A DNA stretch of 21,922 nt from positions 1 to 21,922 of IMG/VR virus record IMGVR_UViG_3300029286_003682; one strand, 5' to 3'. A model generated the notes under the pieces. That model ran no database searches and was not told the origin of the DNA. It was given only the letters and a program-made list of their open reading frames with translations. This DNA comes from a virus. Each line of letters starts with the position of its first letter. Position 1 is the stretch's first letter. Made by a program: the position numbers and the translations under genes. This document shows, in pieces, positions 6,549 through 21,922 of this stretch.

Positions 6549-7160
6549 ATGAAAGAAGAAAAGAACAGCGCAGAAGTTGGGATCAAGTCGGTGAATTTAA
6601 CTTTAAGGGGACGCCCCGGATCCCGATTAGTAATTCATGCCTTTACTGACAAGGCTAAACAGGAAATTCGGGACAAGCAACAGAAGAAAGCAAAAAAAGC
6701 GAAAGAACAAAGAGATCCAAACGCCGAATTTATGGCGGCGCGGTATGTGGACGATCAAGGGCGCGAATGTGCGCCAGTTACGGCATTAAAAAAGGCGATT
6801 ATCACAGCGGCAACCGCATTTGACGACATTACAAAAGTCGGTCTGCGGCAAGCGGTGTTTGTGGATTCTATTACGGCTCCTGGTGCGGATTACATTCCGA
6901 TTGAAACCCTTGAAGGAAAACCGGCCGTGGGAGTGATGCGCGAAGATGCCGTTACCATCGGGATTAACACGCGCGGACTGACATACCGGCCCGAATATAA
7001 GGAGTGGCAGTTGCGGATCCGGATCGAATTCAATCCGCGGATCGTCAGCGAAGAACAATTATTGGCCCTGGTAGATCAAGCCGGTTGGGGTGTGGGAATT
7101 TGTGAAGGTCGGCCTGAAAGATCAAGTGCGTTAGGTTGGGGAAGATTCATGCGAGTTTGA
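6549..7160 (+). CDS. Conserved phage protein of the replication module
   Basis: Predicted 203-aa protein of a family I recall from many tailed phages, where it also sits next to recombination or replication genes. Typical features seen: an N-terminal VNLTLRGRPGSRLVIHAFTD strand region, a lysine-rich linker (residues 38-58), ARYVDDQGRECAPVTALKKA, IPIETLEGKPAVGVMREDAV, and a C-terminal RPERSSALGWGRF. AGGAGGAAAAGCGG precedes the ATG at 6549. The biochemical role is not known to me; single-strand DNA binding or annealing would fit the context but is speculation. It is immediately followed by the 5-nt GG array. Confidence 0.65.
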   Translation: MKEEKNSAEVGIKSVNLTLRGRPGSRLVIHAFTDKAKQEIRDKQQKKAKKAKEQRDPNAEFMAARYVDDQGRECAPVTALKKAIITAATAFDDITKVGLRQAVFVDSITAPGADYIPIETLEGKPAVGVMREDAVTIGINTRGLTYRPEYKEWQLRIRIEFNPRIVSEEQLLALVDQAGWGVGICEGRPERSSALGWGRFMRV

Positions 7161-7198
7161 TCCGGTTAAGTGCGGCGGCGATCGTCCGGATCCGGCCG

Positions 7199-7519
7199 GG
7201 CATGGCAGGCGCGTTCAGGATGGGCTTGTCGTGGTTGGGAAAAGTTGAGAGCGGCGTGGCAGGTAAGGTCGTGATTGGAACGGCGCGACCAGGCAAGACA
7301 TGGTTTGGCAGGCGTGGCGAGGTCTGGTTCGGTTTGGTAAGGAATGGGTTTGGCAGGCGGGGCATGAAATGGCAAGGCAAGATGCACTACGGAAAGCACG
7401 GCAGGTTTGGTTAAGCGAGTTATAACGAGGTCTGGCCGGGTCAGGCATGGCAGGTGAGGCGTGGCACGGTCTGATTCGGCAAGGTCGGGTTTGGACGCGG
7501 CCCGGCCGGCGAGGCATGG
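7199..7519 (+). repeat. GG pentanucleotide-periodic array
   Basis: Non-coding stretch of about 320 nt in which GG recurs every 5 nt (NNGGN units). From 7311 to 7376, GG starts at 12 of 14 consecutive 5-nt positions (7351 and 7366 fail). From 7453 to 7518 it does so at 11 of 14. Phase slips of 1 nt occur at about 7208, 7262, 7311 and 7453. The other three bases vary widely, so this is not a simple sequence repeat. Five-nt periodicity ignores codon phase, and frames through it encode only low-complexity G/R/W/A-rich peptides. The strand is strongly G-biased and could form two-tetrad G-quadruplexes. Confidence 0.8.
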
Positions 7520-7528
7520 AGTTTAGTA

Positions 7529-7904: not shown

Positions 7905-8281
7905 GGGAACGATTACCAGACACGCGGCAGAGCATAACGCACAAGGCGGTCATACGGTGGAACAAAAAACGGATAAAATTTGATATCACGGTGGGGGTTT
8001 ATCCGGATGGTCGGTCAGGGGAAGTGTTTTTGGAATTCGATCAATCGGGATCCATGCTGGATGGCTGGGCGGATTCCTGGTCAACAGCTTTCTCAATGCT
8101 TCTACAACATGGAGAAACGCTGGAGAACCTGGTGAACAAGTTTGGCCGGCGGAGATTTGATCCCCAGGGCATGACGGAGAATCCGGAGATCCCGTTCGCT
8201 TCAAGCGTGGTGGATTATGTGGTGCGGTGGATGGAAAAACAGTTTGGAAAAAAGGAGGTAGAAAGTGCCGACAAAAATTGA
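7901..8281 (+). CDS. Stand-alone TSCPD-domain protein
   Basis: Predicted 126-aa protein matching the TSCPD domain found at the C-terminus of B12-dependent (class II) ribonucleotide reductases. Visible hallmarks: KFDITVGVYPDGRSGEVFLE, then STAFSMLLQHGETLENLVNK, FGRRRFDPQGMTENPEIPFA, and SVVDYVVRWMEKQFG. In reductases this region helps present or bind substrate or effector. A free-standing copy in a phage could modulate the host reductase or another nucleotide enzyme. No reductase gene is in the window. The start overlaps the previous stop; the end overlaps the next gene, whose ribosome site (AAAGGAGGT) lies inside this frame. Confidence 0.7.
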   Translation: MRERLPDTRQSITHKAVIRWNKKRIKFDITVGVYPDGRSGEVFLEFDQSGSMLDGWADSWSTAFSMLLQHGETLENLVNKFGRRRFDPQGMTENPEIPFASSVVDYVVRWMEKQFGKKEVESADKN

Positions 8282-9158
8282 ATGGTGTGATGAGACGTGG
8301 AATTTTCTGACGGGTTGCTCTCCGCTCAGTGAAGGGTGCCAGCATTGCTACGCTAAACGGATGGCGAAGCGGCTGGCCGGGCGGTATGGGTATCCGAAGG
8401 ATGATCCGTTTCGGGTAACATTTCATCCGGATCGGATGGAAGAACCGTGGAAGTGGGCGAAGCCGCGGATTGTCTTTCCGTGTTCCATGTCCGATCTGTT
8501 TCACCATGACGTTGACGGGATTGATCTGGCCCAGGTGCGCCGGGATGCGTGGCACATCATGGAATCCTGCCCGCGGGATACATTCCTTGTGCTGACGAAG
8601 CGGGATACGATCATGCGTTCATTCTGCATGACCCGCGAACCGATGAAGCATATCTGGCTGGGAGTTACCGTTGAAAATCAGAAACACGACGATCGGATCA
8701 TAACCTTGCTGAATACACCGGCCGGAAAAAGGTTTGTGAGTATTGAGCCGATGCTGGGTCCGGTTGATCTTACGCGGATAAAAATCGAATGGCTGGCTAT
8801 TCCCCAGGGAGCCGTCCGGCCGATCGGGCGCGTGATCGAAGTCAACGCCTTGACCGGAAACACGATTGACCACATGGGAATTGAGCGGACCGGCGGCCCA
8901 AAATTGGACCTGGTGATCTGCGGTGGCGAGACGGGGCCCGGTGCGCGGGAATGTAACCTGGCTTGGCCGCGGTTATTGCGCGATCAATGCGTTAAGGCCG
9001 GCGTTCCATTCTTTTTCAAGAAGTGGGGTGATTGGAATGCACGACATTACGGCCGGCATTTTGCAAAACAGTTAATCGGATCATGTATAGACGGCCAGCA
9101 ATGGCGGCAATGGCCCGTGAGCGGCGTTGAATCCGCCGCGCCAAGGAGGTCAGCATGA
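8265..9158 (+). CDS. Gp37/Gp68-family (DUF5131) radical-SAM-like protein
   Basis: Predicted 297-aa protein of the phage Gp37/Gp68 family. It shows WNFLTGCSPLSEGCQHCYAK: cysteines C18, C25 and C28 in a C-x6-C-x2-C cluster expected to hold an iron-sulphur centre. Later motifs are DPFRVTFHPDRM, MSDLFH, DTFLVLTKRD, WLGVTVENQ, FVSIEPMLGP, and VICGGETGPGAREC before FKKWGDW. The family is widespread on mobile elements and is sometimes paired with a three-Cys-motif partner protein; substrate unknown. GTG is the start, supported by AAAGGAGGTAGAAA just upstream. It overlaps both neighbours slightly, so it belongs to the small-gene operon. DNA or nucleoside modification is a possible role, unproven. Confidence 0.85.
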   Translation: MPTKIEWCDETWNFLTGCSPLSEGCQHCYAKRMAKRLAGRYGYPKDDPFRVTFHPDRMEEPWKWAKPRIVFPCSMSDLFHHDVDGIDLAQVRRDAWHIMESCPRDTFLVLTKRDTIMRSFCMTREPMKHIWLGVTVENQKHDDRIITLLNTPAGKRFVSIEPMLGPVDLTRIKIEWLAIPQGAVRPIGRVIEVNALTGNTIDHMGIERTGGPKLDLVICGGETGPGARECNLAWPRLLRDQCVKAGVPFFFKKWGDWNARHYGRHFAKQLIGSCIDGQQWRQWPVSGVESAAPRRSA

Positions 9159-13835: not shown

Positions 13836-14041
13836 GTATTTCGAGGGACTCTTCGACGCGAAAATCTTGCTCAGGGCAGGCAAAACGGGGTCTAACGGCA
13901 CCGAAATTTGCGGATTTTGCGGATTTCGGGAACGGTCCATTGCACGGTAGATCAAATCATGGGATTTTAAGATCACAAAAGGCGAATACTGCCACGCCGA
14001 AAAAGTAATGGCAGGGAACCTTAATGATGAGGAGAAACATC
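13836..14041 (+). other. Intergenic region upstream of the scaffold gene
   Basis: About 205 nt with no gene. After a terminator, the structural genes need a new promoter. The only candidate I see is TTGCAC at about 13938, followed after 17-19 nt by a T-rich stretch (GATTTTAA), which is weak. A short direct repeat (TTTGCGGATTTTGCGGATTT) lies at about 13907-13927. No tRNA or other RNA is recognised. Confidence 0.35.
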
Positions 14042-15022
14042 ATGGCGAAAGCTCAAAACACGAAAACAACAAGTGCGGCGGCGGCGTCCGAAGACGGCAC
14101 CAAAACCGGAAAAGTTGGGACGACAGTCGAAGAACGAGAACGACTCGCGGCGGTTAATCAATCATCGCCGGACGGCGAAGACACCGACGAAGGTGAAGGC
14201 GCTGGAGAAGGCGAAGACACCGATCAGGGCGAAGGCACTGGTGAAGGTGAAGGCGCCGGTGAAGGCGAAGGCACCGGAGAGGGTGAAGACGATGGCGAAG
14301 GTGAAGGCACCGGCGAAGGCGCCGTTGAAGGTGAAGGTGATCCAGACTTGGATGAAGGCAAGATCAAGGACGGAGAGATAAAAGGTCTTCCGTCGGAAAT
14401 CCAAGCCAAGGTCAACAAACGAATTCACGGCCTTAACATCAAACGGAAAAACGCAGAGGCGAAAGCCGAGCAGACAGAGGCGCAATTCAAAATCCTGAAC
14501 ACAAAACTTCAGGACGAGAATATCCAGGCGGCGATCAAGTTGGGATTCGATCCGAACTATGGCACGGCCGAGGACGCGAAGAAACTGAATCGGGTGGAGA
14601 ATCTGCAAGCGTGGAGAAGTTTCTATCGGGAATATGTAGAAAACGGTTATGAGGGTTCCGGCGTGAAAGATGATCAATCTATGAACGCCGCGGAAGTGAA
14701 GCGAAAGCTTTATGCGGTTGAGGACGAGTTGATGGACATTGGCGGATCGGTCCGATCGAAGGCGATGGAGAGGATGGCCTTGAAAGACGCTGACGCGGCA
14801 GTAGGACGGAAGATCCGTTTGGAGGGTGCCAATAAGTCAACAACGACTCCGCCGAAGAAAGTGAATCCCAAACCGCCGAAACTGCCCGAAGGTGGAGCCA
14901 CGCGCCGGCCGCCAGTAAGCACCGCGGGTAAAGGAAAATCGGGATTCGATCAAAAGGAATTCAACAACTCCGCGCGTGATGAAAACGCGCTGGAGGAACA
15001 ATACAAAAAAATCTTTGGGTAG
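14042..15022 (+). CDS. Putative capsid scaffolding protein
   Basis: Predicted 326-aa protein. Residues 45-106 are an acidic low-complexity run of GEG[A/T/D] repeats. A coiled coil covers about residues 118-165 (SEIQAKVNKRIHGLNIKRKN and onward). The rest is helical, with a basic/proline hinge (TTPPKKVNPKPPKLPEGG), and the end is FNNSARDENALEEQYKKIFG. Acidic disorder plus coiled coil plus a charged helical tail, directly upstream of the major capsid gene, is the usual scaffold profile. The start at 14042 was chosen for GAGGAG about 8 nt upstream; ATGs at 14024 and 14027 lack a ribosome site. It ends in TAG. Assignment is from composition and position. Confidence 0.65.
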   Translation: MAKAQNTKTTSAAAASEDGTKTGKVGTTVEERERLAAVNQSSPDGEDTDEGEGAGEGEDTDQGEGTGEGEGAGEGEGTGEGEDDGEGEGTGEGAVEGEGDPDLDEGKIKDGEIKGLPSEIQAKVNKRIHGLNIKRKNAEAKAEQTEAQFKILNTKLQDENIQAAIKLGFDPNYGTAEDAKKLNRVENLQAWRSFYREYVENGYEGSGVKDDQSMNAAEVKRKLYAVEDELMDIGGSVRSKAMERMALKDADAAVGRKIRLEGANKSTTTPPKKVNPKPPKLPEGGATRRPPVSTAGKGKSGFDQKEFNNSARDENALEEQYKKIFG

Positions 15023-17039: not shown

Positions 17040-19385
17040 ATGCCGGAAGAAAATAGACCCATAGATGAAGTGCAAAGTGATGGTGGAACATCATTAGTTA
17101 CGGAGCCTTCACTGTCGGAATTGAAAAGTGAAGTGGCACAGATTGTCGCGGAGTCGAAAGACACGATCTGGCCGATGCGGGTGGATACGGAATCCACCCG
17201 TTTTTGTCGTTGGGAATATCAATCGGCTGATGGGTTGAAACATAAGGCGGCAAGAGACGATGATAAAGAACCGGAGCCGTTTGAGGGCGCATCGGACATG
17301 CGCGTTAGAACGGCTGATATGCTGATAAACGAGGACGTAATGCTCCTGGTGTTATCGGCCATGCGGGCACAAATCAATTTCAAGGGCACGGAAAGCAAGG
17401 ACACTAAGAAGGCCGGCAACATGGCGATCGTCATGCGCTGGCTGATCCGGAACCATTGGGGAGTGAAGTGGGTCCAAGAACTACTTAAACTTGCAAATTA
17501 TTTTACGGGGGATAGCCCTGGGTTGGCATTACTGGGGATCGTATGGCGGTATGAGACGGCGTTGAAGATGGAGAAACTGACAGCCGAAGAGCTGATGAAA
17601 CTCTATCTGGATCAAGTGGTGGAAGTATTATCAGAAAATGCAGAACGGGAAATGCCGGCGCAGGAAACACCGGCAGAGGAACAGCCGGGCGGTCCCGCCG
17701 AAGGAACTCCGCCGACCGCAGGGATGCAGGACATTCAAGGACTTGCGGCACAGGCGGCAGAAGATTTTAAGACCGCGCTGGCGAGCGAAGAGAGTGATGA
17801 ATTTCTTTCGGCCAAGTTGGCGGAATTCTTCCCAGGGATCCGGCCGGCGCGGGCAAAGAAAGTGATCCGCGAATTGCGCGAGAAAGGCCGGGCGGAGTTT
17901 CCCGTTCCCTATATCAAGCAGGACGGTCCGGACATTCAGGCGAAGCGGTTGAATGAGGATTGGTTCATTCCGCTCAATACGACCGATTTTCAGAGTGCGC
18001 GAGTTTATTTTGAAGCCGAGTGGCTGACCAAGACACAGATCATTGAACGCAAGATCAGCCAGGGCTGGAGTGATGATTTTGTTGAGAAGGTGATCGGGAA
18101 ACGGGAGAAAGACGGATCCCGCCAGGGCGGACATGAAGCATCGGCGGCATTTCCTGACTATATGCGCGACGATGCCGGCGACATTGTTGCGCGACCGTCG
18201 AGTTATTACAAGGGCCTCTATCAAGTCCTAACGGCATTCTATCAGGCGACAAACGAGGACGGAGTGCCCGGCAAATACTTTGTTGTTTTCCATAATGATG
18301 TTGACGTAGTGGCCACGGACCGCCGACTGATTGATTATGCGCATGGCGGTTATCCCGGCCATGTCTTTCGGCGTGAAGTCCTCACTGGCCGGCTATGCGA
18401 TTCGCGCGGGATAGCGGAGTTGGCCGGGACCTATCAGGGATTGGAGAAGGTTTATTGCGATAGTTTTGGCGACCATGCCCAGCTCGCCGGCGTCCCACCG
18501 ATCATTACCCGCAATCGGCAGAGGATGGGGGCGCTCCATATCAAACCGTTATTGGAACTTCCGGCAAAACGGGACGGCGACTTTGAATGGATGAAACCGC
18601 CGGAATATCCGCGGACCGTTGTGGACATGGTGAAGGAACTCCGCCGGCAGAGGGATGAATACTTCGGTCGGACGAATCCGGACGTGGCGTCGGACCTTGT
18701 GCAGTTACAACGGGAATTCAAAGTTTTGTGGTGGCTCTTGAATTTGCGCCAGGCATTAGTCCAGGTCTTTCAACTTTGCCAACAGTATATGCCGGACAAT
18801 TTGATCCAACGGATCACAAACCAGAAGGGCGAATCATTATTTAAGAGCCGCGAGGAAATTCAAGGGCAGTTTGATCTTGATCTCCAATTCGATCCGCGCG
18901 ATCTAGATCCGGATTATCTGGAGAAGATTGGTAAAATTGTTAAGGACCTGCTGATTCCGATGGACCGGGATAAGACTATTCAGACCGCGGCGATCGTCAG
19001 CGCGTTCATGTGGCGGATTTCTCCGGACCTGGCAGAAGCGGCCCTAGTGGACGTGGAACAGGCAAACCAGGCCGAGACAGCGGCGGAGATCAAAGCATAC
19101 CAGGAGATCCGGGCGGGCACGGAACCCGATTTACCGGACGATGGCAGTATCAATTATCAGTTGCGGCTACAACTCTATCAAAATCTTGAGCAGATGAATC
19201 CGGACATTTACCGGGATATGGCTCCGGACAAGTTGAAGATCATGCAGAGCCGGCTACAGCGTATGCAAGTGTTGGCGCAACAGTTTGGCGAGAACGTGGC
19301 GATCGGACGTGAAGGCGGACGGCGAGCATTACCTGCGCCGGCGACAGGAACCGCGACACCCGCGGGCGCACCCACGCCAGCATAA
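17040..19385 (+). CDS. Portal protein
   Basis: Predicted 781-aa portal, the dodecameric ring at the capsid vertex for DNA entry and exit. Residues 80-99 (PFEGASDMRVRTADMLINED) are the hallmark segment near the N-terminus of this portal class. Further support: WFIPLNTTDFQSARVYFEAE, VVFHNDVDVVATDRRLIDYA, GIAELAGTYQGLEKVYCDSF, and the helical C-terminal crown/barrel portion (NQAETAAEIKAYQEIRAGTE, LQRMQVLAQQFGENVAIGRE), ending in an Ala/Pro/Thr tail. Residues about 200-240 are a Pro/Glu/Gln-rich insert. TTGAGG precedes the start weakly. The portal comes after the capsid gene here, an order seen in some podovirus-like groups. Confidence 0.82.
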   Translation: MPEENRPIDEVQSDGGTSLVTEPSLSELKSEVAQIVAESKDTIWPMRVDTESTRFCRWEYQSADGLKHKAARDDDKEPEPFEGASDMRVRTADMLINEDVMLLVLSAMRAQINFKGTESKDTKKAGNMAIVMRWLIRNHWGVKWVQELLKLANYFTGDSPGLALLGIVWRYETALKMEKLTAEELMKLYLDQVVEVLSENAEREMPAQETPAEEQPGGPAEGTPPTAGMQDIQGLAAQAAEDFKTALASEESDEFLSAKLAEFFPGIRPARAKKVIRELREKGRAEFPVPYIKQDGPDIQAKRLNEDWFIPLNTTDFQSARVYFEAEWLTKTQIIERKISQGWSDDFVEKVIGKREKDGSRQGGHEASAAFPDYMRDDAGDIVARPSSYYKGLYQVLTAFYQATNEDGVPGKYFVVFHNDVDVVATDRRLIDYAHGGYPGHVFRREVLTGRLCDSRGIAELAGTYQGLEKVYCDSFGDHAQLAGVPPIITRNRQRMGALHIKPLLELPAKRDGDFEWMKPPEYPRTVVDMVKELRRQRDEYFGRTNPDVASDLVQLQREFKVLWWLLNLRQALVQVFQLCQQYMPDNLIQRITNQKGESLFKSREEIQGQFDLDLQFDPRDLDPDYLEKIGKIVKDLLIPMDRDKTIQTAAIVSAFMWRISPDLAEAALVDVEQANQAETAAEIKAYQEIRAGTEPDLPDDGSINYQLRLQLYQNLEQMNPDIYRDMAPDKLKIMQSRLQRMQVLAQQFGENVAIGREGGRRALPAPATGTATPAGAPTPA

Positions 19386-21067: not shown

Positions 21068-21922
21068 ATGAAATTAGATATTAGAAATTTTCCGCCACGG
21101 GCGGACCAGTCTACGGCTGGGAAATTAAAAATATTAGTTTTGGCATTCTGCATTCTGCCTTCGGCCTTTCTGTTTGGCCAGGATTATTATCCGCAGGTTC
21201 GGACAAAAGGCGCGGTGGAAGACGGGGAAATTGCGATTTTTGACGGAGTGAGTGGACGCTATATCCGGTCCGGCGGTACGAATATAGCGTCTGCGGTTCA
21301 AACGATGACTAACTTTGTCCCGGTGGCGTCATCGAGTAATTATCTGATTTATTTTCCGGCCACCAGGACACTTACGGGATGCGTGACGAACAAGAATACG
21401 GGACCACAAGGTCCAGCCGGGACGAACGGAGTGGATGGGATCAATGGGACGAATGGGGCGACTGGTCCACAAGGACCGCAAGGTCCGGCCGGAACTAATG
21501 GGATAGATGGAATTAACGGAACGAATGGAACACCTGGAGCAACGGGTCCGGCAGGGACAAACGGGATTGATGGTATCAATGGAACGAACGGGGCAACTGG
21601 TCCGCAAGGGCCGCAGGGCCCGGCAGGAACGAACGGGATAGATGGGATCAATGGGACGAATGGGGCAACGGGACCACAGGGCCCACAAGGTCCAGCCGGG
21701 ACGAACGGAGTGGACGGAATTAATGGAACGAACGGGACAAATGGAGCGCAAGGTCCACCCGGAACGAATGGCGTGGATGGTATCAATGGGACGAATGGCG
21801 CGACTGGTCCGCAAGGGCCGCAGGGCCCGGCAGGAACGAACGGGATAGATGGGATCAATGGGACGAACGGGGCAACGGGACCACAGGGCCCACAAGGTCC
21901 AGCCGGGACGAACGGAGTGGAT
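21068..21922 (+). CDS. Collagen-like phage fibre protein (truncated by window end)
   Basis: 285 codons with no stop before the window ends. GGAGGAAGAGGA lies directly before the ATG at 21068. Residues 20-37 are hydrophobic (KLKILVLAFCILPSAFLFG), like a signal or anchor. Residues 38-111 are a small non-repetitive head (YPQVRTKGAVEDGEIAIFDG). From residue 112 to the end, 58 uninterrupted G-X-Y triplets follow (GPQGPAGTNGVDGINGTNGAT units), predicted to form a collagen-like triple helix. Such trimeric stalks occur in phage tail fibres. The non-collagen C-terminal domain that normally sets trimerisation and receptor specificity lies outside the window. Confidence 0.8.
   Translation, partial: MKLDIRNFPPRADQSTAGKLKILVLAFCILPSAFLFGQDYYPQVRTKGAVEDGEIAIFDGVSGRYIRSGGTNIASAVQTMTNFVPVASSSNYLIYFPATRTLTGCVTNKNTGPQGPAGTNGVDGINGTNGATGPQGPQGPAGTNGIDGINGTNGTPGATGPAGTNGIDGINGTNGATGPQGPQGPAGTNGIDGINGTNGATGPQGPQGPAGTNGVDGINGTNGTNGAQGPPGTNGVDGINGTNGATGPQGPQGPAGTNGIDGINGTNGATGPQGPQGPAGTNGVD
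21401..21922 (+). repeat. Collagen-triplet DNA repeats
   Basis: Tandem units of 6-9 triplets (18-27 codons) built on GPQ-GPQ-GPA-GTN-GxD-GIN-GTN-GAT. At the DNA level 21601-21715 is repeated at 21808-21922 (offset 207 nt) with only two differences, showing recent duplication. Confidence 0.85.

Follow-up and report, generated by a model that had tools for sequence, protein, structure and literature searches.

A GG-periodic pentamer array beside a RAMP-fold gene in a viral contig: a very probable VIPR locus

The IMG/VR record IMGVR_UViG_3300029286_003682 (21,922 nt, analysed over its full length and called the window here) contains a stretch in which GG recurs every five nucleotides next to a conserved 203-aa gene. 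What is this stretch for, and does it belong with the gene? The original prediction placed the array at 7194-7520 and knew of no described function for such arrays, but one has been described since April 2026: VIPR (Viral Interference Programmable Repeat), in which a phage-borne RAMP protein of about 20 kDa, Vipr, acts with guide RNAs called vrRNAs (PMC13142463, a preprint). According to the preprint, a vrRNA consists of alternating GGY and NN, and each NN pair reads two bases of DNA and passes over the next (the “1-nt-skip” code). It also reports vrRNA expression, a Vipr-RNA complex, DNA binding and transcriptional repression; the systems tested, in E. coli, were of type II (PMC13142463). We consider it very probable that the 203-aa gene and the array together are a VIPR system and, by analogy with the published systems, their most likely role is to let the phage find the genes of its rivals and silence them.

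Periodicity and punctuation of the array

All of the predicted GG starts are present, at 12 of 14 successive 5-nt steps from 7311 to 7376 and at 11 of 14 from 7453 to 7518. Compared with 1000 dinucleotide-preserving shuffles of 7194-7520, the array has a clear excess of GG pairs at lag 5 (32 vs 10.8 in shuffles, z 7.3). Pairs are also raised at lags 10, 15, 20, 25 and 30, and they are depleted at lags 2, 3, 7 and 8. This lag-5 signal is the strongest in the window: the best 150-nt stretch has 16 GG pairs, against seven or fewer elsewhere on either strand.

Segmentation of the array gives 63 five-nt units, of which 44 begin with GG and 55 have a pyrimidine at the third base. The full GGY is found in 40 units, and the array is more degenerate than those of most relatives. 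The first reading of the sequence missed the third-base pyrimidine, the non-random nature of the 1-nt slips and the earlier start of the array, which is at approximately 7164, directly 3' of the stop codon of the 203-aa gene (7158-7160). The idea of selection on GG spacing stands but is incomplete: the third base is also constrained, and the other two bases, which had been thought free, are not idle and match target genes. Similarly, there are 1-nt phase slips between blocks, but they are not random. Each is a 4-nt unit (GGCA followed by GG six times, GGCC once), and these units, which we call “punctuation”, split the array into about six blocks (“guides”) of 8-10 repeats each (Table 1). Guide 0 is less certain than the others because it has the poorest GG conservation. 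Scans for promoters and terminators gave hits at chance level only, none of which stood out, and an Rfam search gave no match.

Table 1. Coordinates of the gene, guides and punctuation at the locus, with the NN pairs of each guide
Feature	Position in window	Strand	NN pairs	Basis
predicted vipr gene, 203-aa RAMP-fold protein	6549..7160	+		profile, structure, homology
guide 0, degenerate first GGYNN block	7164..7203	+	TA-GC-GG-TC-CG-CC-CG-AT	segmentation
punctuation GGCA 1	7204..7207	+		segmentation
guide 1	7208..7257	+	GC-CA-TG-TT-GT-TG-AA-TG-GC-GT	segmentation
punctuation GGCA 2	7258..7261	+		segmentation
guide 2	7262..7306	+	AA-CG-TT-AC-GC-CA-AA-AT-TT	segmentation; 18/18 match in L137
punctuation GGCA 3	7307..7310	+		segmentation
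guide 3, one 6-nt unit	7311..7351	+	GT-GA-CT-TC-TT-AA-AT-TT	segmentation
punctuation GGCA 4	7352..7355	+		segmentation
guide 4, irregular	7356..7399	+	GG-AT-AT-AA-AA-GC-AC-..-AC	segmentation
punctuation GGCA 5	7400..7403	+		segmentation
guide 5	7404..7448	+	TT-TA-GA-AT-GA-CT-CG-CA-AT	segmentation
punctuation GGCA 6	7449..7452	+		segmentation
guide 6	7453..7503	+	GA-GT-AC-CT-TC-AA-CG-TT-CG-CC	segmentation; 20/20 match in L130
punctuation GGCC 7	7504..7507	+		segmentation
terminal stub, GGYNN units past last punctuation	7508..7522	+		common at relatives' array ends

Arrays in relatives follow the same plan. Position 1 is G in 78% of units, position 2 is G in 91% and position 3 is C or T in 89.5%, with positions 4 and 5 nearly uniform. 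GGCA makes up 244 of their 394 four-nt units, and the spacing from one punctuation to the next peaks at 9 and 10 pentamers. Most arrays (25 of 45) stop 1-3 units after their last punctuation and inner guides that short are rare, which suggests that a GGCA-GG serves both as the end of one guide and as the start of its successor.

The 203-aa gene and the spread of the gene-array pair

The 203-aa gene was originally labelled a replication-module gene, a label that its fold and homology overturn. The protein belongs to phrog_4652 (E 2e-22), an uncharacterised phage family, and has no match in Pfam. Its AlphaFold2 model (mean pLDDT 85) has CRISPR Csm3/Cas7 subunits as its top matches in both Foldseek (E 2e-4) and VIA-align 2 (Z up to 10.9 over about 150 residues). 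We located the vipr gene of phage SUSP1 in KT454805, between SUSP1's own arrays, and the 203-aa protein is homologous to its product (BLASTP E 2e-9; hhalign probability 97.6%). Judged by homology and modelled structure, the protein is Vipr, a stand-alone RAMP-fold protein. It shares its fold with the Csm3/Cas7 RAMPs of Class 1 CRISPR effectors, a family that is RNA-guided by function. However, the window has no CRISPR repeats, no further cas-type gene was found among the neighbours tested, and the array uses a gapped pentamer code, not contiguous spacers.

That the array belongs with this gene, as had been proposed, is borne out by related phages: of 34 IMG/VR viral contigs encoding a relative of the protein, 31 have a lag-5 array near the gene on the same strand, be it upstream, downstream or on both sides. 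For example, arrays flank vipr on either side in L014, L026, L035 and others. Some array calls on the opposite strand are low-scoring artefacts of GGC/GCC symmetry.

The same punctuated arrays occur in prophages of Rhizobium leucaenae, Mesorhizobium, Methylobacterium, Martelella and Phyllobacterium, and in the isolated Gordonia phage ODay, where the array is next to a Vipr homologue. The Vipr proteins of these prophages and ODay are only 35-40% identical to that of the window. In ODay (L138), the homologue is gp19 (MW534375 10343-10972), annotated as “hypothetical protein”, and the GGCA-punctuated array that follows it is unannotated. ODay therefore offers a laboratory model for this type of array.

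Hardly any other gene of the window has a counterpart in the phages with a 70-85% identical Vipr, and across the window's clade a stretch of about 3 kb around vipr contained no conserved neighbour gene and no conserved vap (the VIPR accessory gene). With so few genes in common and no conserved neighbour, the vipr-array pair seems, from these genome comparisons, to move between phages. A terminase query found one relative only. A more distant group has a candidate accessory gene: an ORF of 166 aa (phrog_15946-like, no Pfam match) lies between vipr and the array at L042:10660-11160 and is conserved in 20 distant loci, so it is likely an accessory gene of that group, putatively vap.

Targets of the guides

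The best evidence for what the guides read comes from the Rhizobium leucaenae prophage (L042). When 243 guides were ranked with skips of 0-3, its guides 5 and 3 gave the top matches, and did so at skip 1 only (E 1.8e-5 and 3.4e-5). A set of 298 Rhizobiaceae genomes contains a single match to guide 5 (20 of 22 bases), which reads in frame within the portal gene of a phage (PF04860). With the mismatched pair left open, the site occurs in three viral contigs, in the portal gene each time. Testing all guides against these portal-match contigs produced the guide 3 match, in which 16 of 16 bases lie in frame in an HK97-type major capsid gene (PF05065) of L121 and L123. The portal and capsid sites are in the same two contigs, so a single array directs two of its guides at one set of rivals, the first against the portal gene and the second against the capsid gene. 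The base skipped in these matches is the codon wobble position. The guide 3 match exactly fills the interval between two successive GGCA units, which makes the punctuation a guide boundary. The preprint's 1-nt-skip code is thereby confirmed in a different array type, which fixes the reading frame of the window array. The 154 guides of the window's clade favour the same phase: NN fits sense codon positions 1-2 best in 68 of them, with 27 for the next phase.

Two of the window's own guides have candidate targets. Guide 6 matches L130, a tailed phage, at 20 of 20 bases (ten pairs) under the 1-nt-skip rule, in frame in a 168-aa ORF with an HEFGH motif; the search used nine pairs, and the tenth matched unasked. 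Guide 2 matches 18 of 18 bases under the same rule, in frame in a long ORF of L137, a 130-kb viral contig. Chance alone gives about one match per 18-base pattern in viral_contigs, and these matches are therefore suggestive, not proven, pointing to genes in L130 and L137 as possible targets. The first nine NN of guide 1 had no exact match in viral_contigs. Guide 5 had exact matches in five contigs, all in one homologous gene and all out of frame, and we rejected these as chance.

Other searches were less productive. With 145-243 guides, about 0.5-1.3 Mb of related contigs and skips of 0-3, there was no excess of matches over shuffled guides, nor did any significant target emerge when the complete set of guides was run locally against related phages (about 1.3 Mb). 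The local scan had a weak excess of 2-mismatch hits at skip 1 (42 vs 21-28), on which we do not rely. A guide from L043 had six matches with 1-2 mismatches in the 298 Rhizobiaceae genomes, which is near the chance expectation, and was set aside. An L002 guide had no exact match in viral_contigs, and the window as target of an L002 guide (16 of 18 bases, in frame, ORF 17040-19385) was not significant. An L044 guide had no match in 121 genomes. It fits its own phage's head gene at 18 of 22 bases in frame (L044:8131-8163), a match not significant alone, and by sequence it looks as if its intended target were the equivalent gene in a rival.

Mechanism, comparison with known systems and alternative readings

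The proposed mechanism builds on what was observed by computation: the array, its punctuation and boundaries, the fold and homology of the protein, and the 1-nt-skip matches in a relative of the same type. Vipr would coat a guide RNA read from 7164-7522, with about six guides head to tail. Each guide would comprise 8-11 GGYNN pentamers, with GGY as a scaffold gripped by the protein and the two N bases pairing with two of every three bases of the DNA target. GGCA then GG would mark each guide boundary. The guides would correspond to stretches of rival phages' genes, read so that the skipped base falls on the wobble position of each codon, and the Vipr-guide complex would therefore attach to such a gene and keep it from being transcribed. 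The window array is presumably transcribed with vipr, processed near GGCA and active in repressing rival genes.

Like the type II VIPR of the Escherichia phage SUSP1, the window's system has a homologous RAMP protein, GGYNN repeats and hypervariable NN, and is phage-borne. SUSP1 and the Rhizobium leucaenae prophage, which has the window's array type, both have targets inside genes under the 1-nt-skip rule, where the wobble base is the one passed over, and the window's own guides may have such targets too. The layout is different. SUSP1 has four separate vrRNAs of ~100 nt, each with a structured 3' tail (PMC13142463; the gaps can be seen in its sequence), whereas the window's guides are joined directly with GGCA between them, and a search by eye found no tail. 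The window's clade also differs from SUSP1 in having no conserved vap gene, which the cited parts of the preprint describe as typical of VIPR but not universal (PMC13142463). VIPR guides are given there as 9-16 repeats, so some of the window's (8-10, with a family mode of 9-10) are slightly short. The preprint has one line, with fig. S18, on “staggered arrays with overlapping vrRNAs” (PMC13142463). The window array may well be this architecture, since a 4-nt GGCA produces a 1-nt stagger, and arrays which end 1-3 units past their last GGCA are as expected if neighbouring guides overlap.

VIPR itself is thus already known, as is, in one line, the existence of staggered arrays (PMC13142463). Possible novelties are the punctuation by GGCA, the lack in this clade of both a tail and an accessory gene, the horizontal transfer of the cassette and the use of portal and capsid genes as targets. 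We tentatively suggest, as a possibility that falls short of even odds, a pared-down form of VIPR: one mobile vipr with no accessory gene, paired with a tail-less polycistronic array in which GGCA-GG ends and starts guides aimed at rival portal and capsid genes. The pair may travel as a cassette between otherwise unrelated phages. The same code, from independent data, is found here in a different array type, in soil phages, Alphaproteobacterial prophages and an isolated Gordonia phage. With GGCA as the boundary signal, sequence alone suffices to read the guides, and decoding them in this way makes it possible to follow conflicts between phages in metagenomes.

The array could instead be a DNA-level ruler, with GG on one helix face every half turn binding a replication or packaging protein. 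The 5-nt spacing and the replication genes nearby suit this idea, but it leaves the position-3 pyrimidine and the GGCA punctuation unexplained. Moreover, phages with no other gene in common with the window phage also have the array, which therefore has no tie to their replication modules; it is always on the vipr strand, as RNA requires; and the free bases fit two of every three bases in rival genes. We regard the ruler as highly unlikely. Two-tetrad G-quadruplexes, in RNA or displaced DNA, are scarcely credible: the GG-N3-GG-N3 sequence would allow them and the fold z-score of -2.4 is in their favour (it indicates some excess of ordinary structure), but they require no position-3 pyrimidine, register marks or RAMP gene, and they predict nothing on target matches. 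Both of these ideas came from the original prediction, and the constrained pyrimidine, the informative NN and the RAMP neighbour leave neither supported.

The prediction that the array is non-coding was correct. All frames are rather open, and ORFs 7136-7414 and 7215-7517 cross the array, yet the frame changes with each pentamer and once more with each 4-nt unit, and relatives differ freely in the two N bases, which reduces a protein-coding repeat to a negligible prospect. It is also improbable, if less extremely so, that this is a decayed VIPR array which no longer works. Its mean unit score is 1.96, compared with 2.0-3.3 for most relatives (i.e., lower GG conservation), and guides 3 and 4 are irregular. 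However, vipr is intact, with 85% identity to relatives; the array of SUSP1, which has been studied by experiment, scores alike (1.84-2.14); and guides 2 and 6 retain full in-frame matches. A VIPR system remains our preferred reading of the locus.

Elsewhere in the window, 8265-9158 encodes a DUF5131 family protein (Pfam E 4e-79) that is also present in several otherwise unrelated relatives. The ORF at 14024-15022 contains low-complexity Gly-Glu repeats, and close to the right end of the window lies a repeat of collagen-like or proline-rich character (21329-21895).
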